A stretch of DNA of 64,000 bases, taken from NCBI GenBank assembly GCA_025928545.1, contig JAICJH010000012.1:1-64000 (forward strand), read 5' to 3'. The stretch is from Bryobacteraceae bacterium. Its GTDB lineage: Bacteria; Acidobacteriota; Terriglobia; Bryobacterales; Bryobacteraceae. Positions 27,756-37,577 of the stretch are shown piece after piece; position 1 is the first letter of the stretch, and each line of letters starts with the position of its first letter. The notes beneath the pieces were generated by a model. That model saw only the letters and a program-made list of their open reading frames with translations, ran no database searches and was not told where the DNA came from. Position numbers and translations under genes: made by a program.

Positions 27756-28159
27756 TATCTTGCCACTCCTGAATTTGCTGCGCTGCTCAGCAGGCGGCGT
27801 CGAAAAAAATATGACAGAATCCAGAGCACCGCCGTGGCCGCCGCCCAACTCCACACCTCCGGACCATCCCCCAGCGCGAAGTGCGCAATCAGCGCCGAAC
27901 CCAGCGTAATCCCGAACCCGGCATAAGCCCACTCCCGGAGCCACTCAGGCACGGGCGCAAGCAACAGCACAATCCCGATAATCTTCGCCCACGACAGTTC
28001 CACGCGGAAGTAAGCGGGGTAGCCGAGATGCGTGAACATCCCGGCTACCTGCGGCAGGCGCAGTTGCGCGTAGGCCGTGAAGCCCATCTGAAGACAGAAG
28101 AGCGCGGTGATAATCCAATAGGGGGTCGTCGTTTTTCCGGCGGTATTTCTGGTGGCCAT
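27755..28159 (-). CDS. DoxX-like small membrane protein
   Basis: A 134-residue protein with four hydrophobic helices: WIITALFCLQMGFTAYA, IIGIVLLLAP after the ELSWAKIIG motif, an alanine/glycine helix around SALIAHFALGDG, and AAATAVLWILSYFF. The pattern MFTHLGYPAYFRVELSWAKIIG is typical of DoxX-like proteins accompanying ArsR/SRPBCC genes. Function unknown; inner membrane. It starts 6 bp after the SRPBCC gene. Confidence 0.75.
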   Translation of the reverse strand: MATRNTAGKTTTPYWIITALFCLQMGFTAYAQLRLPQVAGMFTHLGYPAYFRVELSWAKIIGIVLLLAPVPEWLREWAYAGFGITLGSALIAHFALGDGPEVWSWAAATAVLWILSYFFRRRLLSSAANSGVAR

Positions 28160-28165
28160 GGCGCA

Positions 28166-28741
28166 TTAACTCTTTGGCAAATCGGCGGCCCAGCTGGGGA
28201 GCTCAACGCCGAACTGCTTCGCGTATTCCGCGAGCAATCGCTGCCAGCCGTTGAACTTCATCACCTCCGGGCCGACCGTGCGGCCGACCGGAGTTCCATC
28301 GAGCAGGTGACCCAGCGTATCGAAACAAACGTGCCATCCGGCGGCGCCCATGGCGACGTAGCGGCGATCGATGCTGGTCCAAAGCGTCAGCCGTGTCCCG
28401 CCATTCAGGTCCTCGAGTTCCCACCGCATTGGATTGCCCGCGCCGCCCCAGGTGTATTCGAGGACCCTCGGAGCGTCGGCCCGCTTCACGATCGTTTCGG
28501 TCACGTGAGGCTGCGGCGCTCCCACCGTGGTGAGCTTCACGGTGTTGCCCGCCGTCGCCAGAGTCCCGTCGGCATCGAAGGGAGCCCATTCGCGCAACTG
28601 GGCCGGATCGGTGAGCGCCTGCCAGACTTTCTCCGGCGAATGGCGCAGCTCTCTGACAAGGACAAGGGTCCAGTTCTCTCCGTCCTTGATGACCCGCGCC
28701 CCGTTGGCCGGACCCGGTGTGTATAGATCCCGATTGTTCAT
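28166..28741 (-). CDS. SRPBCC/AHSA1 domain protein
   Basis: A 191-residue START-like (Activator of Hsp90 homologue 1-like) protein. LVLVRELRHSPEKVWQALTDPAQLREWAPFDADG is the standard opening strand-helix, and VTETIVKRADAPRVLEYTWGG with MRWELEDLNGGTRLTLWTSID completes the fold, which encloses a hydrophobic ligand cavity. The ligand is unknown. It overlaps the ArsR stop by 4 bp (ATGA), so the two are translationally coupled. Confidence 0.8.
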   Translation of the reverse strand: MNNRDLYTPGPANGARVIKDGENWTLVLVRELRHSPEKVWQALTDPAQLREWAPFDADGTLATAGNTVKLTTVGAPQPHVTETIVKRADAPRVLEYTWGGAGNPMRWELEDLNGGTRLTLWTSIDRRYVAMGAAGWHVCFDTLGHLLDGTPVGRTVGPEVMKFNGWQRLLAEYAKQFGVELPSWAADLPKS

Positions 28742-29082
28742 CGTTTTCTCCCTGACTTGGTTTTTGTTGGCGTTTTTGGATACGTGCGGTCGAGGTGGCG
28801 TTCGAGAGCGTCCACATGCGCGGACCAGAATTGCCGGAATGGAGCCAGCCAGGCATCCAGTTCCTGGAGCGGTTCAGGCCGCAGTCGGTAGAGGCGGCGC
28901 TGAGCGTCCACCGTCGCTTCGACGAAACCGGCATCGCGCAGGACGCGCAGATGCTTCGACACGGTCGGCTGCGCCATGCGAAGCTGCCGCTCGATTTCAC
29001 CGACCGACTGTTGCGACGAGACGAGAAGGCTTAGGATCGCGCGGCGGTTCGGCTCCGCAATGATTTCGAACACAGAATCCAC
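28738..29082 (-). CDS. ArsR family transcriptional regulator
   Basis: A 114-residue winged-helix repressor: FEIIAEPNRRAILSLLVSSQ, VGEIERQLRMAQPTVSKHLRVLRDAGFVEATVDAQRRLYRL. The metal-binding ELCVCDL motif of classical ArsR is absent, so it belongs to the SRPBCC-linked group with an unknown signal. The start is GTG at 29082, where homology begins; upstream frame extension to 29199 runs through the operator and is rejected. Promoter and palindromic operator lie directly upstream. Confidence 0.85.
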   Translation of the reverse strand: MDSVFEIIAEPNRRAILSLLVSSQQSVGEIERQLRMAQPTVSKHLRVLRDAGFVEATVDAQRRLYRLRPEPLQELDAWLAPFRQFWSAHVDALERHLDRTYPKTPTKTKSGRKR

Positions 29083-29088
29083 TTCTTT

Positions 29089-29127
29089 GGTATACCTTGT
29101 GGAGTATATGCTTGTCAAGGTATATAC
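29089..29127 (-). promoter_or_regulatory. Promoter and operator of the ArsR operon
   Basis: Minus-strand TTGACA (29113-29118), 18-bp spacer, TATACC (29089-29094), then 6 nt to the GTG start: a near-consensus leaderless promoter. An inverted repeat, GTATACCTTG (29090-29099) against CAAGGTATATAC (29116-29127), covers both boxes and is the likely ArsR-binding site, giving autoregulation. Confidence 0.7.
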
Positions 29128-29703
29128 GCGACAAAGGGGGTTGGATGTCCGGCCCGTGTCGTGCCCGGCCTTCGCATCGCTGACGCTCACTCGGCGCATG
29201 CCACGCGCCGGTAGCGGCGTAGTGCTGGGCTGGAAGTAAAAGCGCAGAATTCAAAAGCGCCTGCGGCAGCATGGAACCCGCGCGCCGAAGCTCAAAGTGG
29301 CTCATACACAATCGCGACGTTATTCGAAGCTGGCCGCGCCGCGCTGAAGCCGTCGCTAAAACCAGCAGCTTCCGATAACGCGGGATTCATGTAATCGCAT
29401 GACAGATAACACCCGCGCGGCATCGTTACTCGCAGCCGTCACAGCCAGGCCGGCCTTATCCCCACTCCCCTACGTTCGCAGCGTGCGGCCCGGTCGGGGC
29501 ACCCGCCCTTTTATGCGGCGCCCAAACCGCGCTGCAAGCTGCCCGCTGGTTCAAAACCCTCTTCCGTTTCGCCCATAACCGAGTAAGCAACAAACCCACT
29601 TCCACGACGGGTTTTGCAGTTTCAAAAACTATTGGTTTTGAAACGCCCTCTCCTCTGATTACGCAGCAGCGCTTGTGAATAAATGCGCCTGTCCCGCTTA
29701 TTC
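29128..29703. other. Gene-free stretch upstream of the ArsR operon
   Basis: About 575 bp with no convincing gene on either strand; frames are short and lack family motifs. The left part is G+C-rich. The right part contains a perfect hairpin at 29619-29644. Possibly decayed coding DNA at the edge of the accessory region. Confidence 0.5.
29619..29644. terminator. Perfect 9-bp hairpin downstream of a small gene
   Basis: GTTTCAAAA (619-627 of this kilobase) pairs with TTTTGAAAC (636-644) around an 8-nt loop. It lies 60 bp beyond the stop of the minus-strand gene at 29704. It is A+T-rich and lacks a clear T-tract, so terminator function is a guess; a protein-binding palindrome is the alternative. 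Confidence 0.3.
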
Positions 29704-29925
29704 CTATTCAAAACCGGGGGGTTTGAGTGAAGGATGTTCCGCATAAAGCGGATTCAGTATCTCGAAAAGAATCTCACCCATCACTCTCCCTGCTGCTCTT
29801 CGATAGCTCTCGAATTCGGCTGAAGAGCAACTGTCCCTTATCAGAGCTACGGAAGAATCAATCTGACCGCTGATGTTCAGCATCAGCTCACTCACCTTCT
29901 CCGCTACAACCGTGTCTATTATCAT
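29704..29925 (-). CDS. Hypothetical small acidic protein
   Basis: A 73-residue protein: MIIDTVVAEKVSELMLNISG, then SCSSAEFESYRRAAGRVMGE and ILFEILNPLYAEHPSLKPPG. It looks helical, with no signal peptide or membrane segment. The ending resembles small conserved proteins with an LxPLYxEHPxLKP motif, but no function is known. AGGAAG lies 6 nt before the ATG, which supports a real gene. It is the last gene of the minus-strand small-gene array. Confidence 0.55.
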   Translation of the reverse strand: MIIDTVVAEKVSELMLNISGQIDSSVALIRDSCSSAEFESYRRAAGRVMGEILFEILNPLYAEHPSLKPPGFE

Positions 29926-30163
29926 CCAGTCTTCCTATTGACATCCTGCATCGGCCATACACTGATTCACGCACCGAAAAAACGTCGTGCCGAAATCGGT
30001 CGTCGTAATGCCGTATTTGAGCACTTGTCAATACAGGTCTGCTTGGCTTTTCGGCACCGTCTATCGCCAATTTTATAGCGGCTGTCGCGATGCGGCGCTG
30101 AAGCTGGGCCGTCAGGTACTGCAGAATTATGTGCCAGCGTCATTTTCGCCATGAGAGGCTGCA

Positions 30164-30382
30164 TTAACGCAAGATACCGTAAGCAATATAAAGAGTGACG
30201 AATGTTCCGAGTGCGCCTATGAGACGCATTTCCACACGCCGCCACTTACTTTTGATGCGGGCCTCACTGAAGAGACTGGATTTCAGAGAGTACTTCGACC
30301 TAAACCAGCGTTCTGGCGAGATCATCATGAACGCACTCTGGAACAGGACGACGACCAAAGCGGTCCCTGCCACCAAAGGCAC
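30164..30382 (-). CDS. Small membrane protein, paralogue of the gene at 31345
   Basis: A 72-residue protein with two hydrophobic segments (LVAGTALVVVLFQSAFMMI and IGALGTFVTLYIAYGI) around a charged middle, SPERWFRSKYSLKSSLFSEA. The motif FQSxFMMISPxRWxRSKYxLKS recurs in the 82-residue product of 31345-31593. The start is GTG at 30382. No family is recognised; a role as immunity protein or membrane anchor would be speculation. Confidence 0.55.
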   Translation of the reverse strand: MPLVAGTALVVVLFQSAFMMISPERWFRSKYSLKSSLFSEARIKSKWRRVEMRLIGALGTFVTLYIAYGILR

Positions 30383-30774
30383 AAAAATCAGTTGCCAAGC
30401 CGTATTCAGCGTCGAACCATCCCCTCAGACGGAGGCTGTTCGGCTCCACAATAATTTCGAAGGCAGAGTTGCAGTGATCTCGCGCACCTTGGTCTCTGAT
30501 CTGGCGAAAGATTTAAAACGTGCAACCCGCGAAATCTCCTGATCCTATTCTCGCCAATGAGTGCAACGAAAGGTTGGCTTAGTAACGACCTTTCTGCTCC
30601 CTGGAACCGAGGTTGATATCGCTCTGCCAAATTGCCCCGTTACGATAATTGAAGACGGCGACCGAGACGCGGCATTCTTTCCTGTGCCAGGCCTGAGATC
30701 CCCGTTCCATCTCTGGAAAATGCCCGATCAATCCGTGCACCACCCTGCATGGTGAAGTACCGACCCTCGGCGGT
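30383..30774. other. Degenerate region between small genes
   Basis: No intact gene. It contains an ArsR N-terminal remnant (30438-30470). Further right, the minus-strand frame of 30579-30824 reads SVAVFNYRNGAIWQSDINL, which weakly recalls CVSIAIINLQTGAVYDSPF of the gene at 33131; a decayed relative is possible. Confidence 0.35.
30438..30470 (-). pseudogene. ArsR N-terminal remnant
   Basis: The minus strand encodes NSAFEIIVEPNS, matching DSVFEIIAEPNR at the start of the ArsR protein at 28738-29082, and the DNA is similar over about 33 bp. The rest of the gene is absent. It points to an old duplication or recombination between this stretch and the neighbouring operon. Confidence 0.4.
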
Positions 30775-30975
30775 TCATCCGTTCCGAGTACTACGGTATC
30801 TGCGGGCGAACAGGAAGACCCCATTTAATATAAGCGCAGACATCAACGCAACGAACAACGCGAATCCGAGGCCGAAGTCCAGCCCGAGACCCATCCAGAT
30901 TGACGCCAAAAGTATCGTGAGATTTCCAGTTAATAGCAGGATGTGGTCTTTTTGATTGCGTTGCTTTTCGTTCAC
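30775..30975 (-). CDS. Hypothetical small membrane protein
   Basis: A 66-residue protein with a short charged N-terminus (NEKQRNQKDH) and two hydrophobic helices (ILLLTGNLTILLASIWMGL and FALFVALMSALILNGVFLF), ending in a basic tail RRYRSTRNG. The start is GTG at 30975. No family recognised. Part of the same-strand array of small membrane proteins. Confidence 0.45.
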   Translation of the reverse strand: MNEKQRNQKDHILLLTGNLTILLASIWMGLGLDFGLGFALFVALMSALILNGVFLFARRYRSTRNG

Positions 30976-31064
30976 GGTTTTTCTCGATTCCTGGCGCAGT
31001 TATTCAATCCCATTTTTCGGCATGTAACGCGACAATGATTGCTCGGCGGCGTCGCCACACCACC

Positions 31065-31238
31065 TCAGTCCTTCCTTTTCCGAATCATGAATAAAGGGCC
31101 GATAATCAATGCCAGCCCAATTAGCGTGCATGCCGTTTGCCGCTCCGGATGACCGTCTGAGATTGGCGGTAGCATCCCGCCAAAAAACCAAATAGCCACG
31201 CCCAACAAGACAACAATTATTACTGCAGAATTCCTCAT
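31065..31238 (-). CDS. Hypothetical small membrane protein
   Basis: A 57-residue protein: helix VIIVVLLGVAIWFFGGML, a loop PPISDGHPERQ, a second helix TLIGLALIIGPLF and a basic end MIRKRKD. The ATG at 31238 is chosen as the last one before the hydrophobic segment. No family recognised and no strong Shine-Dalgarno. Confidence 0.45.
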   Translation of the reverse strand: MRNSAVIIVVLLGVAIWFFGGMLPPISDGHPERQTACTLIGLALIIGPLFMIRKRKD

Positions 31239-31344
31239 TCGAGCGTCACCGTTAGTTCCACCAATCCTGGCCATTTGGGATCGCCGGGTATGATTCGAGC
31301 GGCTCCTGCAGCAGATGGTCCTGCGCCACCCCAAAGAGGACTTC

Positions 31345-31593
31345 TCACATCATGACAAACCAGAACTCGTAAAGCACCAAAATCCCTGTCATCGTCATCA
31401 AAAATCCAATTACCCTGAACCAGATGCCACCCCACCGCCCAGCGATATTATCCTCGGTGATCTCGCCCGACTTCAGGGCATATTTTGATCTAACCCACCT
31501 CTGCGGAGAAATCATCATAAAGACGGACTGAAATAAAATTACCGATACAAAGCAGGTAACAACCACAGCCGCCAACATGTTTCTGGGATTCAT
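31345..31593 (-). CDS. Small membrane protein, paralogue of the gene at 30164
   Basis: An 82-residue protein with two hydrophobic segments (MLAAVVVTCFVSVILFQSVF and VIGFLMTMTGILVLYEFWF) around SPQRWVRSKYALKSGEITED. It shares FQSxFMMISPxRWxRSKYxLKS with the 30164-30382 product. AGGAG lies 7 nt before the ATG, a good indication of expression. Function unknown. Confidence 0.6.
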   Translation of the reverse strand: MNPRNMLAAVVVTCFVSVILFQSVFMMISPQRWVRSKYALKSGEITEDNIAGRWGGIWFRVIGFLMTMTGILVLYEFWFVMM

Positions 31594-31768
31594 CGTCTCA
31601 CTCCTGTCTAGCTAGAGAGGTATGGACATGCGGTGTGGGCGATGTCTAACGCGGGCAGCGTACCGCAAGGGACGCGGGAATTGGAACTCCGGTGGCTTCC
31701 TTGTCATTACGCGAGTTTCCGGCAGGCAGAGCTCGATCATCATGTGCGTGTGCATTGTAACGGCTTTT

Positions 31769-31957
31769 TCAGCTTTCGGAACGGTAAACGATGGATACCA
31801 AAGTGACCAAAACGGCCACGCCGATCAGATATAGAATCAATCAGTCGCCGGTTCCAGGTGTCCATCTGAACAGAACGAAACCGAGCGCCCCGCAGATCAC
31901 CTTGCCTGCGAGTATCAGTCCGCTCTTGAGATTAAATCGCACTCCGTCCAGTTTCAT
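31769..31957 (-). pseudogene. Small two-helix membrane protein gene split by in-frame TGA
   Basis: From the ATG at 31957 the frame reads LKSGLILAGKVICGALGFVL and FRWTPGTGD, then TGA (31841-31843), and continues in the same frame with LILYLIGVAVLVTLVSIVYR to a TGA at 31769. Both parts are hydrophobic helices of one 62-residue protein. A single G-to-A change in a Trp codon would explain the stop. It could also simply be a 38-residue protein. Confidence 0.35.
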
Positions 31958-32047
31958 CTCCACATGGGCGCACCATTTGCCGGCCCGTTGGGATTCGCGG
32001 CACCAGCACAACCAGTATGGACGACCAGGTCGATACCTGTCATACCG

Positions 32048-32548
32048 CTATGGCTCGATCACAATCGCGGTTGCAGCGAGCATATCGAGCTCCGCGCCAA
32101 GCGCACCGAGATGCCCGAAGCCCATGTGATAAGTCTTGCCGTCGCGACCCGAATAGGAGGCGTTTTCTCGGCTGGATTTCAAGCGACTAGTAAGAGTCAC
32201 CATCATTTTGCAGGACGGGCATTTGGATTTGAACGCTTTAGGAAGTTGCCCTAAAGACCCGGGATCCCAGTCGCTTATATTTGCCTCGGCGAGCGCAGCG
32301 CCAGCGGTTCGAGTGCTGATCACGGGCGGCCATGGGTCGCCCCCTATCAGCACCTTTCCATCGCACTGCCCGAATAACCCGACGACTTCGGTGCCCAATA
32401 AGTATTCCCCGCGTATCCGGACGATCTTGCCGTTGAGATCGTCGATGTGATGCAGCGCGCCACAGACGTCAAGAACACCGGCATCGGAATCAGCGGAAAC
32501 CGTCCAAACCAGCAGGAATAGCCAAAGCAGATTGATACCGGTTTTCAA
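32048..32548 (-). CDS. Hypothetical secreted protein with CxxC motif
   Basis: A 166-residue protein. The TTG at 32548 is proposed as start: GAGG lies 7 nt upstream and a signal peptide follows at once (LKTGINLLWLFLLVWTVSA). An ATG at 32614 in the same frame would overlap the previous gene. The mature part has DVCGALHHIDDLNGKIVRIRG, FGQCDGKVLIGGD and KSKCPSCKMMVTLTSRLK, with four Cys including CPSC. The KIVRIRG segment suggests an OB-like beta-strand. No family is recognised. Confidence 0.55.
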   Translation of the reverse strand: MKTGINLLWLFLLVWTVSADSDAGVLDVCGALHHIDDLNGKIVRIRGEYLLGTEVVGLFGQCDGKVLIGGDPWPPVISTRTAGAALAEANISDWDPGSLGQLPKAFKSKCPSCKMMVTLTSRLKSSRENASYSGRDGKTYHMGFGHLGALGAELDMLAATAIVIEP

Positions 32549-32576
32549 TGAATAGCCTCGCTCACTGTTGCATGCT

Positions 32577-32939
32577 TCACATGCTCGCTCCGGTGATCTG
32601 CCCAACTGAATCAATAGCGCTCTGTATTCTTAGCCTATACTCGGCGGACTGAGCACTGGAGATCAAGACGCGCAGGAGACTCAGGGTGGCTACTGGATGA
32701 CGATCGTTTAGGTCTTCGATAGCCGCAGGGTGAGCTAGCGAGTGGCTGAGTGCCGCCAGGATCTTCTGCAATAACAACTCGTCCCCGAGCTTGGACGGAT
32801 CGAGAGTAGCAGAGATATCGGCGGCCACGCGATCCCCCATGGTCGAAAATACCCTGCAGTCAGTTCCAGTCAGGAGAAACCCCGGCCGCTGCAAATACTG
32901 TTGAACGTACGCGGATTGGCTGAGATGTCGGTCATTCAT
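32577..32939 (-). CDS. Hypothetical protein starting in the direct repeat
   Basis: A 120-residue, mostly helical protein without signal or membrane segment (ELLLQKILAALSHSLAHPAA and VATLSLLRVLISSAQSAEYR). Its first codons (ATGAATGAC) lie within the direct repeat shared with 34044-34087, directly after the Rhs-like tail. No Shine-Dalgarno. An immunity-type protein of a polymorphic-toxin module would fit the position, but no family match supports it. Confidence 0.45.
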   Translation of the reverse strand: MNDRHLSQSAYVQQYLQRPGFLLTGTDCRVFSTMGDRVAADISATLDPSKLGDELLLQKILAALSHSLAHPAAIEDLNDRHPVATLSLLRVLISSAQSAEYRLRIQSAIDSVGQITGASM

Positions 32940-32976
32940 GGCTTGCTAAACCCGCCGGTTGGCAATGTTATCCGCG
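32931..32976 (-). repeat. Direct repeat, copy 1
   Basis: TTCATGGCTTGCTAAACCC and flanking bases match 34044-34087, with 23 consecutive identical bases and then scattered differences. On the minus strand it spans the end of the Rhs-like tail (GTT TAG) and the first codons of the next gene (ATGAATGAC). Confidence 0.75.
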
Positions 32977-33062
32977 GCATACCCGTAATACTCCGTCCCG
33001 GAACCCGGTCCCGCATAATACGAAAACATCCGGTTCGACATCTCATAAGCCACCGTGCCGCC
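32946..33062 (-). pseudogene. Rhs/YD-repeat-like C-terminal remnant
   Basis: A minus-strand frame ends with VAYEMSNRMFSYYAGPGSG and TEYYGYAADNIANRRV, then TAG. The pattern (Y-x-x-x-NRM, GTEYYGYAxDN-RRV) resembles YD repeats at the end of an Rhs core. Its left part overlaps the 3' end of the gene at 33131, and no large Rhs gene lies in the window. It reads as an orphan fragment of a polymorphic toxin gene. The match is short, hence moderate confidence. Confidence 0.4.
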
Positions 33063-33130
33063 CTCGCCCGTGGGGCGGTACAAACACTGCGCCTTAAGGA
33101 AGGAAACAGGTGAAAGCCGTAGCTCTCTCA

Positions 33131-33613
33131 TCATTCGATTATGGACCCCGCGGGCACATACCGAATACGCAGGAAACGTTCGCCCGTCCATTCGAAATAA
33201 TAGGTTCCACAATTGCGATCCTCCGGGCAACCTCTGGCTATCATCAGCCGGCTCTCCGGACGATATTCGAGTTCTTCCTCGCCATTCTCATACTGTCGGC
33301 GAGTACCATAGGCCAGAACCCTAAAGGGGCTGTCGTACACTGCCCCCGTTTGCAGATTAATAATCGCAATTGAAACGCACGACGAGCCGCAACCCCACTC
33401 GGCCAGCCTATAGTGACCAGCGAAGTTTACCCCTAGCTTGGCCTCTTCGGTGATCTGAGTCCTGAAGGTTCGTTGGTATGGTGTTTTAATAATCGGGGTC
33501 GCAGGTGACCCTTTCATCCCGTCATGCACCCGATATGTTTCGAACTGCGGAATCCCACTGGCAGCAAGACCGGTGAGAGCCATCAGACCCAGGAAACAGG
33601 ATTGCAGAGTCAT
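33131..33613 (-). CDS. Conserved hypothetical secreted protein (WGCGxSC type)
   Basis: A 160-residue protein with a signal peptide (LQSCFLGLMALTGLAASG). The mature region holds GVNFAGHYRLAEWGCGSSCV, IAIINLQTGAVYDSPF, YRPESRLMIARGCPEDRNCG and YYFEWTGERFLRIRYV. Four Cys, two in CGSSC, could form disulfides. Proteins with FAGHYxxxxWGCGxxC are widespread and uncharacterised. The ATG at 33613 is chosen since the signal starts there; the frame continues 70 codons upstream without features. Confidence 0.65.
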   Translation of the reverse strand: MTLQSCFLGLMALTGLAASGIPQFETYRVHDGMKGSPATPIIKTPYQRTFRTQITEEAKLGVNFAGHYRLAEWGCGSSCVSIAIINLQTGAVYDSPFRVLAYGTRRQYENGEEELEYRPESRLMIARGCPEDRNCGTYYFEWTGERFLRIRYVPAGSIIE

Positions 33614-33823
33614 CCAAACACCATCGGATGCGGGTTCGCGGCGGGAATCACGACCTGAGGAGTTGGCCTCCTGACGGGAAACCATTGAGATTCCACGAAG
33701 CGGAAAGCGATCCCCATCCCGCGCAGCTTGTTGTATGAAGGCATCCTGCGAGACGCACAAGGCCGCACGACCGAATCGAGCGAGCGTATTAATGCGGCCT
33801 GTCGCCTTTCTCCGAAGGAGCAA

Positions 33824-34048
33824 TTAATTCGCCTTGAAAAGGTAGACATACCAATTCGTCTCCAATTGCTTGAAGACTATAGCATCTGGCAATTGATCCG
33901 CCGCCAACATGCATGTATCGAGATCAGTGTGGCACAGCGGCAAAGTACGCGATGAGTATTCAATACCTTTGTCATCGGCGTCGCGTCCATCTTTCAATCC
34001 GGGCTCAAGCCGAAACTGGACGGTTTCTGAATCACGCAGGAGAGTCAT
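33824..34048 (-). CDS. Hypothetical small protein starting in the second direct repeat
   Basis: A 74-residue frame: LLRDSETVQFRLEPGLKDGR, GIEYSSRTLPLCHTDLDTCM and LPDAIVFKQLETNWYVYLFK. Hydrophobicity and codon pattern look protein-like, with a CHTDLDTC pair. A stop codon lies just before the ATG at 34048, which itself sits in repeat copy 2. The alternative ATG at 34052 in another frame stops after six codons. No family recognised. Confidence 0.4.
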   Translation of the reverse strand: MTLLRDSETVQFRLEPGLKDGRDADDKGIEYSSRTLPLCHTDLDTCMLAADQLPDAIVFKQLETNWYVYLFKAN

Positions 34049-34087
34049 TCATGGCTTGCTAAACCCACAGGTTCGCAATGTATCAGC
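34044..34087 (-). repeat. Direct repeat, copy 2
   Basis: Second copy of the sequence at 32931-32976, in the same orientation about 1.1 kb away. The pair bounds a segment with the Rhs-like remnant and two small genes. Confidence 0.75.
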
Positions 34088-34091
34088 CTCC

Positions 34092-34352
34092 TCATCGTTT
34101 CTCCCGCTTTCCGTAGACAAAATGTTCAATCACGGTATAGAAAACAACGCCACAGATTGTTCCAGGAAGAAGCAGCAGGGCAATTAGAATCCAATGTTGT
34201 CGCGGGACTTCGAACAGATCGAGAGTCAGCGACGGAATTCCCCAGAAGATAGCCACGTTTACGAGTCGCTCGCTGAATGACATTTCCGAAAATGACAGTT
34301 TCGTTATCTTCACGCGATTGACCCATTCCGGAAAGAGACCCGTATCCAGCAC
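34092..34352 (-). CDS. Hypothetical small membrane protein
   Basis: An 86-residue protein with two hydrophobic segments (LVNVAIFWGIPSLTLDLF and HWILIALLLLPGTICGVVFY) and a basic end YGKREKR. The start is GTG at 34352; the later ATG before SFSERLVNVAIF is an alternative. It is the first gene of the minus-strand array. No family recognised. Confidence 0.45.
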   Translation of the reverse strand: MLDTGLFPEWVNRVKITKLSFSEMSFSERLVNVAIFWGIPSLTLDLFEVPRQHWILIALLLLPGTICGVVFYTVIEHFVYGKREKR

Positions 34353-34538
34353 CTGTCGCCGCAGTCATTTTTGCCGCGAAACCCGTTCACAAAAAAGTGT
34401 CGCCTCTATTTGCCTTCTAATCATCATCTTACAAAAAATCGGCCTTTTTGCCACCACCCTCATCTGCTAGAAACGAAGCATAGGAAGCAAGAGTTCGAGA
34501 AATAACGCAAGCGACAAAGACAACAAGGACGAACCAAA

Positions 34539-35249
34539 ATGCCGATATCCGAAAAACAACTAGCCGCCAACCGAGTCAACGCCCAAAAAGGCACAGGCCC
34601 CACCACCCCCGACGGCAAAAGCAAATCCTGCCAGAACGCCCGTCGTCACGGCGTCACCGCCCAGGTCACCGTCATGACCGAAGAAGGCCGCGTCCAGCAT
34701 GACGCCTTCTGCTCCAAAATGATGGCCGACCTCCAACCAGTCGGCTCCATCGAAGAATTCCTCGCCAGTTCTGTAGCAGAAGACGCCTGGCGGCTCAATT
34801 ACGCGCGCGCGCAATCCAACAACATCATTTCCCTCGGTCATTTCGATGGCACTGGCGATAACTACGACGCCCACCACCCCGAAATCAACGACGCCATCAC
34901 CGAGGCCCAGACCGTCCGCGACAACGCGAAAACCCTGGAACTCCTCTCGCTCTACGAGCAGCGCATCCACCGCTCATTCCAGAAGCATTTCGACCAGCTC
35001 CAAAAGCTCCAGGCCGAGCGCAAAGCCGAGCGCGCCAAAAAACTCGAAGAAGCCCGCCTCCTCAGTATTCTCGCCAAAGAAAGGAACTTACCGTACGATC
35101 CGGCCAAAGATGGATTCGTTTTTTCGAATGAGGAAATCGACTCTTACATCGACTTCTACCACCGCCTGAAACGCTACGGAGTCGGCCCCTCGCCGCTCGA
35201 ATTGCACAAAAAAACGTCGTCCAACCCGGCGTTGCAGAAAGCCGCCTGA
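34539..35249 (+). CDS. Conserved protein with ANRxNAQKxTGPxTPxGK N-terminus
   Basis: A 236-residue protein. The N-terminus LAANRVNAQKGTGPTTPDGK, then QNARRHGVTA, is a conserved signature of uncharacterised proteins frequent in Acidobacteriota and Planctomycetota. A coiled-coil-rich basic region follows (RSFQKHFDQLQKLQAERKAE, RAKKLEEARLL), then a C-terminal segment with YIDFYHRLKRYG. No catalytic motif is visible; a DNA-linked role is sometimes supposed from the basic N-terminus but not shown. AAGGA precedes the ATG. It marks the edge of the small-gene region. Confidence 0.75.
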   Translation: MPISEKQLAANRVNAQKGTGPTTPDGKSKSCQNARRHGVTAQVTVMTEEGRVQHDAFCSKMMADLQPVGSIEEFLASSVAEDAWRLNYARAQSNNIISLGHFDGTGDNYDAHHPEINDAITEAQTVRDNAKTLELLSLYEQRIHRSFQKHFDQLQKLQAERKAERAKKLEEARLLSILAKERNLPYDPAKDGFVFSNEEIDSYIDFYHRLKRYGVGPSPLELHKKTSSNPALQKAA

Positions 35250-35272
35250 CCAACATGCACACAACTCTCTTA

Positions 35273-35308
35273 ATCCGCGTGAATCGGCCTGAATCTGCGC
35301 CCATTCTC
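35273..35308 (+). repeat. Interspersed repeat, copy 3
   Basis: ATCCGCGTGAATCGGCCTGA followed by ATCTGCGCCCATTCTC: three degenerate units of the ATCGGCGTG family, ending in CCATTCTC as copy 1 does. Confidence 0.5.
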
Positions 35309-35312
35309 CTGC

Positions 35313-35318
35313 CATAAT
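35313..35318 (+). promoter_or_regulatory. -10 box of the acyl-CoA dehydrogenase gene
   Basis: CATAAT ends 7 nt before the GTG start at 35326, with no Shine-Dalgarno; leaderless pattern. Confidence 0.4.
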
Positions 35319-35325
35319 CAAAATC

Positions 35326-36468
35326 GTGGACTTCGAATACACTCCCGAACAGATCCAGCTCCGCCGCGAAGTACGTGAATTCGCGGCTGCCGAGATCGCT
35401 CCGCACGTCATGGAATGGGACGAAGCCCAAACCTTCCCTCTCGACGTCGTCAAGAAGCTCGGCAAGCTCGGTTACATGGGCGCCATCTTCCCCGAAGAGT
35501 ACGGAGGCGCGGGCCTGGGCTATGTCGAATACGCCATCATTATTGAAGAACTGTCGCGCGTCGATGGCTCAGTCGGCATCATCGTCGCGGCCCACACCTC
35601 GCTCTGTTCCAACCACATCAATAAGGCCGGCAATGAAGAGCAGAAGCGGAAGTATCTGCCCAAACTGGCCTCCGGTGAATGGATCGGCTGCTGGTCCCTC
35701 ACTGAAGCCGAAGCCGGCTCCGATGCCGCCGGCACCCGCACCACTGCGGTTCGCGATGGCGATCATTGGGTCGTCAACGGCCTGAAATCGTTCACTACGA
35801 ACATTCACTACGCCGACGTTTGCGTGGGCATGGCGGTCACCAACCGCAGCGCCGCCCAGCACGGCATCTCTGCCTTCATTCTGGAAAAAGGCATGCCCGG
35901 CTTTCGCCCCGGCAAGAAAGAGAACAAGCTGGGCCTGCGCGCCAGCGCTACCGGCGATGTTGTTTTCACCGACTGCCGCGTTCCCCAGTCGCAGCTCGTC
36001 GGCAAGCAGGATGAAGGTTTTGTGGATAGCCTGCGCATCCTCGATGGCGGGCGCATCTCCATCGCCGCGCTGTCGATCGGCATGGCCCAGGGCGCCTACG
36101 ATGCCGCCTTGAAATATTCCAAAGTGCGCAAGCAGTTCGGTCGCCCGATTTCGGAATTCCAGGCCATTCAGCACAAGCTGGTGGATATGGCGACGAAGCT
36201 CGATGCCTCGCGCCTCCTCACCTACCGCGCGGCGACTCTGCTCGATAAGGGCAAACGCGTCACGCGCGAATCCGCCATGGCGAAACTGTTTGCCTCGGAA
36301 AGCGCGGTCTGGATCGCGAACGAAGCCGTGCAGATTCACGGCGGCTACGGCTTCATCAAGGATTATCCGGTCGAGAAATTCTATCGCGACGTCAAGCTCT
36401 GCACCATCGGCGAAGGCACCAGCGAAATCCAGCGCCTGGTCATTGCGCGCCAGTTGTTGAAAGACTGA
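35326..36468 (+). CDS. Acyl-CoA dehydrogenase (short/branched-chain type)
   Basis: A 380-residue flavoenzyme: [82 protein letters not shown] and the closing [43 protein letters not shown]. This is the butyryl/isovaleryl-type family with the catalytic Glu in the GEGTSE region. The downstream MeaB-epimerase fusion overlaps by 1 bp (TGATG), linking it to branched-chain amino-acid or propionyl-CoA breakdown. Start is GTG. Confidence 0.9.
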
Positions 36469-37577
36469 TGACTATGACCGCGCGCGAATTGGCACAGGCT
36501 GCCACGGCAGTGGAGAACGGCGGTGCGCTTCCCGCCGGTCTGCCCGAAGGCCACGGGCTCATCATTGGTATCACGGGCGCGCCGGGGGCAGGGAAGAGTT
36601 CGCTTGCCGATGCGCTCGTGCGGGAGATCCGGCGGCGCGGCAAAACAGTCGCGGTGGTCGCGGTCGACCCTTCCAGCCGCACCACCGGCGGCGCGATTCT
36701 GGGTGATCGAATCCGCATGCAGAGCCATCATGGCGATCCCGGAGTCTTCATCCGCTCTATGGCGACGCGCGGTGCGTCCGGCGGACTGGCGCAAACCAGC
36801 GTTCGGATGGCGCGGCTCTTTCGCGGCGCCGGTTTCGATTTCATCATCGTCGAAACCGTGGGCGCTGGACAGGATGAAATCGAGATTGCAGCCTCGGCCG
36901 ATGTCACGCTGGTCGTGCTGGTTCCCGGCATGGGCGACGAGGTTCAGGCCATCAAAGCAGGCATGATGGAGATCGCCGATATTTTCGTCATCAACAAAGC
37001 GGACCGCCCCGGCGTGGATCAAACCGCAACCGAACTCGATACCGAGCGGCCGATTTTTCGCACCGTGGCAATTGACGGCGCAGGCGTCCCGGAGTTAATG
37101 GATGCAATCGCCGGCTTCGAACCGAAGCGGCCACTGACGCCGGATCCGCAATGGAGTGTGGATCACATCGGCGTCGCGGTCCGCTCGCTGGAAGAAGCGC
37201 TCCCGTTTTACACGGAACAGCTGGGAATGAAGCTCCTCGGGCGCGAAACCGTCCTTCGGGAAAAAGTGAACGTGGCCATGCTGGACGCCGGGCCATCGAG
37301 AATCGAACTCCTCGAACCAACCGCGCCCGATTCCCCGATAGCCAAACGCGGACCCGGCCTCCATCACGTAGCCATGCGGGTGAACGACTTCGACGAAGTC
37401 ATCGCCCGCCTGAAAAAATCCGGCGCGAAAGTGCTGAACGAGCCGCGAAGAGGCGCTGGCGGACACCTCTATGTATTCATCCACCCTGGCAGCGCAGGTG
37501 GCGTACTATGGGAGATTATTCAGCACCCACACGAACTCAATCACCAACCCAATAAGGAGCAGAATTGCCAAAAATAG
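36468..37577 (+). CDS. MeaB-type GTPase fused to methylmalonyl-CoA epimerase
   Basis: A 369-residue two-domain protein. Residues 31-215 are a MeaB/ArgK G domain: Walker A GAPGAGKSS (38-45), VDPSSRTTGGAILGDRIRM, FIRSMATRGASGG, VETVGAGQ and NKAD (176-179). Residues 230-352 are a glyoxalase-fold methylmalonyl-CoA epimerase, with likely metal ligands His233, Glu280 or Gln nearby, His300 and Glu349. MeaB protects methylmalonyl-CoA mutase and gates its B12 cofactor; the epimerase makes the mutase's R-substrate. The helical arms flanking the G domain in free-standing MeaB are short or missing. It is coupled to the acyl-CoA dehydrogenase; no mutase gene is in the window. Confidence 0.9.
   Translation: MTMTARELAQAATAVENGGALPAGLPEGHGLIIGITGAPGAGKSSLADALVREIRRRGKTVAVVAVDPSSRTTGGAILGDRIRMQSHHGDPGVFIRSMATRGASGGLAQTSVRMARLFRGAGFDFIIVETVGAGQDEIEIAASADVTLVVLVPGMGDEVQAIKAGMMEIADIFVINKADRPGVDQTATELDTERPIFRTVAIDGAGVPELMDAIAGFEPKRPLTPDPQWSVDHIGVAVRSLEEALPFYTEQLGMKLLGRETVLREKVNVAMLDAGPSRIELLEPTAPDSPIAKRGPGLHHVAMRVNDFDEVIARLKKSGAKVLNEPRRGAGGHLYVFIHPGSAGGVLWEIIQHPHELNHQPNKEQNCQK

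Follow-up and report, generated by a model that had tools for sequence, protein, structure and literature searches.

What is a run of very small genes, all on one strand and none of a known family, in the genome of an acidobacterium? The run lies in a 64-kb stretch of DNA (the "window": positions 1 to 64,000 of contig JAICJH010000012.1, assembly GCA_025928545.1) of a Bryobacteraceae bacterium, whose 6.7-Mb genome is in 171 contigs with an estimated contamination of 5.6%. It is bounded by a block of ArsR, SRPBCC and DoxX genes (ending at 29199) on one side and by a gene at 34539 on the other. A preliminary description of this DNA had likened the array to the tail of immunity genes and orphan modules of a polymorphic toxin locus, or else to the relics of some other modular system. 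With a probability of about 0.72, we read it as an array of orphan immunity genes (a heterogeneous "polyimmunity" locus) that belonged to an Rhs/YD-repeat toxin system and has decayed, because homologues of its genes neighbour Rhs genes far more often than control genes do, because it contains a stub of an Rhs gene, and because arrays of the same build occur in other Acidobacteriota.

Gene families of the array

Ten frames (A to K, without D) lie on the minus strand over the 5 kb, as had been described. Seven of them (A, C, E, F, G, J and K) have homologues, either in genomes of other Acidobacteriota or at another site of this one, and the best matches span most of each protein. G and J form one family, so that the homologue-bearing families number six. 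Homologues were re-located on stop-to-stop frames; our in-house gene caller missed many small genes of low G+C content.

Frame A (34092..34352; all frames described here are on the minus strand) corresponds to a putative two-helix membrane protein with homologues in five genomes, and is 44% identical over 69 residues to that of stretch L104; its start is uncertain, homology beginning near 34301. Frame C (33131..33613) encodes an apparently exported protein of 160 amino acids (aa) with the signature NFAGHY...WGCG..C. Its family has members at 13 places beyond the window, and it is 45% identical over 151 residues to that of L056. The 120-aa protein E (32577..32939) has two homologues, in L064 (38% identity over 102 residues) and, isolated, in L121. 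Frame F (32048..32548), of about 166 aa and also apparently exported, belongs to a family characterized by VC..L...G..VRIR...GFGHL; this family occupies 34 places in the stretches read, and its relatives among named assemblies are from Bryobacteraceae and other Acidobacteriota. G (31345..31593, 82 aa) and J (30164..30382, 72 aa) are putative two-helix membrane proteins, J being 46% identical to G. The best match of G shows 63% identity, and a third copy of the family (58% identity to G) stands isolated on contig C120 of this genome. K (29704..29925, 73 aa) has homologues at nine further places, all outside the window, among the stretches read; its best match shows 51% identity.

A strongly hydrophobic segment is present in seven of the ten frames. 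Five of these (A, G, H, I and J) resemble small membrane proteins, and C and F, judged by eye, look exported. The earlier characterization as two-helix membrane or secreted proteins is thus confirmed in part; B, E and K are neither membrane-like nor exported-looking. That the proteins belong to no known family was borne out: none of nine (H not included) reaches the curated cut-offs in Pfam or NCBIfam, and none of the ten has a match in PHROGs at E 0.1. A scan of viral_contigs with C gave no relative.

Open frames on the minus strand were compared with 200 first-order Markov copies. Frames of at least 60 aa are in excess (31 against 18.4 expected, standard deviation 3.2; reached in 0/200 copies), as are those of at least 80 aa (15 against 8.7; 4/200). 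Those of at least 100 aa are at chance level (4 against 3.9; 114/200), and at 120 and 150 aa the numbers are also within chance (55/200 and 19/200). Therefore homology, not length, separates genes from chance frames here.

Rhs genes upstream of the homologues

The surroundings of the homologues were read in 88 stretches (87 fetched, plus L254). Homologues found at E 1e-4, with copies within 700 bp merged and weaker rows that were not fetched excluded, make up 66 places. A place was counted as Rhs-adjacent if an Rhs core or YD-repeat lay at most 3 kb upstream on the same strand. This is the case at 15 of the 66 (A 1/5, C 1/13, E 1/2, F 10/34, G/J 1/3, K 1/9), so that none of the six families is without a member behind a same-strand Rhs or YD-repeat gene. 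Homologues of five genes flanking the array, read as a control in 18 stretches (L183-L200), are adjacent to Rhs in 0 of 36 cases. Across 121 relatives we counted 286 Rhs cores; with genome size assumed or rounded, about 0.06-0.11% of genes would be expected in such a position. Counted by rows and with duplicates kept, 22 of 41 genes that follow an Rhs C-terminus have a hydrophobic N-terminus, compared with 31 of 110 other genes, a difference too weak to use.

Family F directly abuts an Rhs gene in two stretches. In L018 (genome G012) F stands between two Rhs cores, the one before it with a HELGH tail and the one after it with a HELLH tail, and an exported protein comes next; L055 (G006) exhibits a YD-repeat protein with a HELGH tail followed by two F copies. 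L254, from a named Acidobacteriales assembly, contains three frames of HExxH tails, with visible Rhs cores in two of them, other genes after each and two F copies at the end. Rhs cores with tails alternate with exported proteins in L072; one of these proteins is a C member after an Rhs core, and the tail before it has a sub-threshold match to a cell-wall hydrolase (E 0.0042). In L113 an Rhs frame of 1902 aa, ending in a glycine-rich tail, is directly adjoined by a G member. A K member abuts a 1593-aa Rhs gene in L117, and another, in L065, lies behind a brief Rhs remnant that shares 88% identity with the Rhs core of L067. In L111 an Rhs core is followed by a membrane protein, a glycine-zipper-like frame and then A, 1.5 kb past the core; a similar glycine-rich frame precedes A in L107, where there is no Rhs hit. 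The order in L064 is Rhs, a lipoprotein-like gene, YD debris and E.

Arrays of the same build in other Acidobacteriota range from ordered tandem modules of Rhs tail and small genes (L201, L202, L254) to broken ones (L070). In L201 (G059) and L202 (G026), four to five orphan Rhs tails stand in tandem, and small membrane or soluble genes accompany each tail. L070 is a broken mixture in which a C and an F member lie among Rhs debris and further small genes, and this stretch comes closest to the disorder of the window array. Together with the stub described below, the counts and these arrays support the likeness to a toxin-locus tail seen in the preliminary description. We also observed a similar gene of 65-67 aa just upstream of two intact Rhs genes of this genus (L054 3471-3674 and L055 13264-13461).

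An Rhs stub, repeats and foreign-looking composition

Between C and E lies D (32946..33083), a stub of an Rhs/YD-repeat protein containing the sequence TEYYGYAADN, ending at a TAG just before E. The piece 33083-32949 weakly matches two YD-repeat proteins (E 8.4e-4 and 0.0096, 51% and 41% identity), within frames of 1651 aa (G006, contig C39) and 1955 aa (this genome, contig C89). By tblastn the identity is 51% over 35 residues, with the YD signature kept and a weak E-value. The Rhs-like tail of the earlier account is thus confirmed, if weakly. A search of the window with the Rhs core profile gave no core and no YD hit beyond D: the array does not stand behind a full-length toxin gene. The two Rhs core hits of this genome are on contigs C89 and C49. 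Vestigial pieces of toxin-gene core between the array genes are thus represented by this one weak stub.

A 38-nucleotide (nt) repeat bridges D and E, covering the end of the former and the start codon of the latter (32931..32968), and a second copy, 92% identical, lies just before B (34044..34081). It looks like one junction used twice, with B left out of register. B itself (33824..34048, 74 codons) starts within this second copy and is probably a 5'-truncated remnant. When a 23-nt part of the repeat was sought in 20 genomes with at most two mismatches, only the two copies matched. A 34-nt sequence at 30434..30467, on the minus strand, is an 85% copy of the 5' end of the ArsR gene, confirming the ArsR remnant noted earlier.

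The G+C content of 29400-34500 is 0.529, against 0.602 in the window outside 28700-35300, and third-position G+C is 0.50-0.63 in the ten frames against a mean of 0.73 (standard deviation 0.03) in 33 long genes of the window, in agreement with the lower G+C stated before. Many small same-strand genes with a repeat and low G+C might also point to a modular system of a different kind, either a relict integron cassette array or a piece of a prophage. We disfavour this and regard it as very improbable: no attC-like core pair was observed (0.76 expected; an integrase was not sought by profile), 28000-36000 has no Rfam match, the repeat occurs only twice, and the PHROGs search given above speaks against a prophage.

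The comparison of the interval among relatives that had been proposed was carried out with 18 genomes of the same genus. None of them matches the array body at the DNA level; their matches fall only in a repeat of about 250 bp at its left end. The flanks (the ArsR operon and the acyl-CoA dehydrogenase) are on different contigs in all four genus relatives that yielded the two of them (G006, G011, G012 and G013), and the array therefore lies at a synteny break. This may leave room for a false join, in which a contig of a metagenome-type assembly unites unrelated pieces; the number of contigs and the estimated contamination point the same way. The array is however coherent, with its paralogues G and J, its repeat copies and its single strand, and a paralogue of G is also present on contig C120, so that we give an assembly artefact only a slight chance.

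Three observations concern the surroundings. The right neighbour of the array (34539-35249, MPISEKQ...RHG) resembles by eye a gene adjoining the acyl-CoA dehydrogenase in G006 (L188 3277-3918). A single frame at 36474-37577 appears by eye to fuse a MeaB-type GTPase to a methylmalonyl-CoA epimerase-like half. The sequence upstream of ArsR (29142-29399) is a dispersed repeat of about 130-250 bp whose copies are 80% alike, with two more copies in this genome (contigs C49 and C113), three in G012 and one shorter match in G001; one of the G012 copies adjoins the Rhs/F locus L018.

Evidence against an orphan-immunity array

A number of results weigh against the orphan-immunity reading. No toxin gene, whole or partial, was seen in the window beyond D, and a promoter scan found two against 4.1 expected, hence no excess. 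The 66 places are not independent, as they include tandem copies; L055 was fetched because of its match to D, and without its two F places the count becomes 13/64. No Rhs lies within 3 kb upstream in 12 of 13 C, 8 of 9 K and 24 of 34 F places, and several K members are within housekeeping operons, e.g. the his genes. The F protein of the window has 29% alignment identity to the Rhs-linked F of L018 and lacks the last cysteine of the family. For B, H (31065..31238, a hydrophobic frame of 57 aa) and I (30775..30975, hydrophobic, 66 aa, one chance-level match at E 0.053) there is no convincing homologue outside the window in the genomes searched. A search was likewise negative for the first half of the previously noted TGA-split gene and, apart from it, for four further frames. 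The split gene, a two-helix frame, is indeed present when read from the sequence (31769..32011; first half 31841-32011, second half 31769-31840). B, H, I and this split frame may be debris. A terminator scan was at chance level.

Alternatively, the interval may hold ordinary small hypothetical genes of Acidobacteriota and non-coding debris accumulated at a rearrangement breakpoint, the Rhs link being a by-product of shared variable regions. The scarcity of Rhs near most C, K and F places, the synteny break in the four relatives and the chance-level number of frames of at least 100 aa all agree with this alternative. It accounts poorly for the difference between 15/66 and 0/36 at a base rate near 0.1%, for six unrelated families that all reach Rhs, several by direct abutment, and for an Rhs stub inside the array. 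We consider it unlikely, though the most serious of the alternatives.

Family F and HExxH peptidase tails

For F, a candidate partner is at hand among Rhs C-termini. The zinc-peptidase motif HExxH is present in seven of nine readable Rhs tails or adjoining orphan frames near F (L018, L055, L235 twice, L230, L254 and L168). Among complete Rhs tails elsewhere it occurs in 4 of 31 (Fisher p 5e-4), a set of 32 distinct tails and five motif carriers from which L168 has been taken out. L066, with insertion genes between, and L070, consisting of debris, were omitted as unreadable; with L066 counted as readable and lacking the motif, the proportion is 7/10 (p 1.3e-3). L230 and L168, with 1.5-kb flanks, enter this count only and not the 66 places. 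In the two readable cases without the motif, it is cut by a frame break (L233, HELGMR) or absent (L067). Three of the seven have intervening sequence: another exported frame at the second place of L235, where F is a fragment; a second frame, with HEGIH, before F in L230; and a 228-codon frame in L254. L168 contributes a weak F hit (E 3.9e-4). The pairing of F with HExxH C-termini is nonetheless consistent. Eight HExxH or Rhs tails scanned gave no Pfam match at E 0.01, and the minus strand of the array contains no HExxH.

We thus infer that F is a candidate inhibitor of Rhs HExxH peptidase toxins. In Zhang et al. (2012; PMC3482391), the Rhs-linked zincin toxins Tox-MPTase1-5 stand without an immunity entry, and the anthrax-lethal-factor-like family lists Imm-SuFu. 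The likeness of the tails near F to these toxins is one of motif, family membership not being established, and we offer the pairing as a lead, with no claim of priority. An AlphaFold2 model of the window F with three relatives had a mean predicted local distance difference test (pLDDT) score of 53.1, and with it Foldseek found nothing in the PDB at E 0.001 (best E 0.44); a model of the L254 F with four others averaged 53.6. An OB-like strand order is imaginable from such models, and we do not claim it. A and G members are found after glycine-rich, zipper-like C-termini, and A and G/J might block membrane-inserting toxins.

A second type of exported protein, resembling by eye a carboxypeptidase regulatory domain, also occurs after HExxH Rhs tails (L018 6244-5513, L072 255-965, L233 452-1054 and L235 3999-3319) and is a possible second immunity family.

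Relation to known systems and a possible origin

The kind of locus is known, and its families are unclassified. Poole et al. (2011; PMC3150448) describe orphan cdiA-CT/cdiI and rhs-CT/rhsI modules, displaced and strung downstream of a toxin locus. The window array shares with them the vestigial toxin-gene piece between small immunity-type genes, and differs in having lost both its main toxin gene and the toxin tips and in the unclassified status of its immunity-type families. The heterogeneous polyimmunity loci of Zhang et al. are tandem unrelated small immunity genes without toxins, and the immunity proteins listed there include two-helix membrane families (Imm17, Imm-CdiI). The array resembles them in its tandem same-strand genes, with six families, all on the minus strand, that have Rhs-adjacent homologues; unlike them, it matches no recognised Imm family at the Pfam and NCBIfam cut-offs and is partly broken. 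In the orphan immunity arrays of the Vibrio cholerae type VI secretion system (Kirchberger et al. 2017; PMC5361080), immunity genes stay behind the present effector as one displacement follows another; the secretion setting is a different one, and no current effector adjoins the window array.

By analogy with the orphan contact-dependent inhibition (CDI)/Rhs modules and the displacement arrays, we infer the following origin. Rhs proteins end in an exchangeable toxin domain at the C-terminus, which is neutralised by the product of the gene immediately downstream. A new module of toxin and immunity gene would displace the old pair, shifting it downstream. In the window array the toxin halves would then have been lost, except for the 45-codon YD-repeat stub, leaving mostly small exported or membrane genes of immunity type. 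If expressed, these putative immunity genes could protect the cell from toxins of the old modules deployed by neighbours. The families, the Rhs adjacency of their homologues, the stub, the foreign-looking composition and the absence from the genus relatives searched are observed.

Implications

The survey of Zhang et al. reports polyimmunity loci of the extended kind from Proteobacteria, Bacteroidetes, Firmicutes and Actinobacteria alone, and in the literature listings examined for Rhs or polyimmunity with Acidobacteria we found no description of such arrays in this phylum. A broader proposal, to which we give about even odds, is that Acidobacteriota keep extended heterogeneous polyimmunity arrays of unclassified exported and two-helix families, that zinc-peptidase toxins of the HExxH type delivered by Rhs have in F their first immunity family, which acts outside the cytoplasm, and that the window holds a decaying example. 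If this is true, several families unnamed in Pfam, NCBIfam and PHROGs would gain a testable function, the Rhs metallopeptidase toxins listed without immunity would gain an inhibitor partner, and polyimmunity arrays would extend to a phylum for which that survey had recorded none of this extent.

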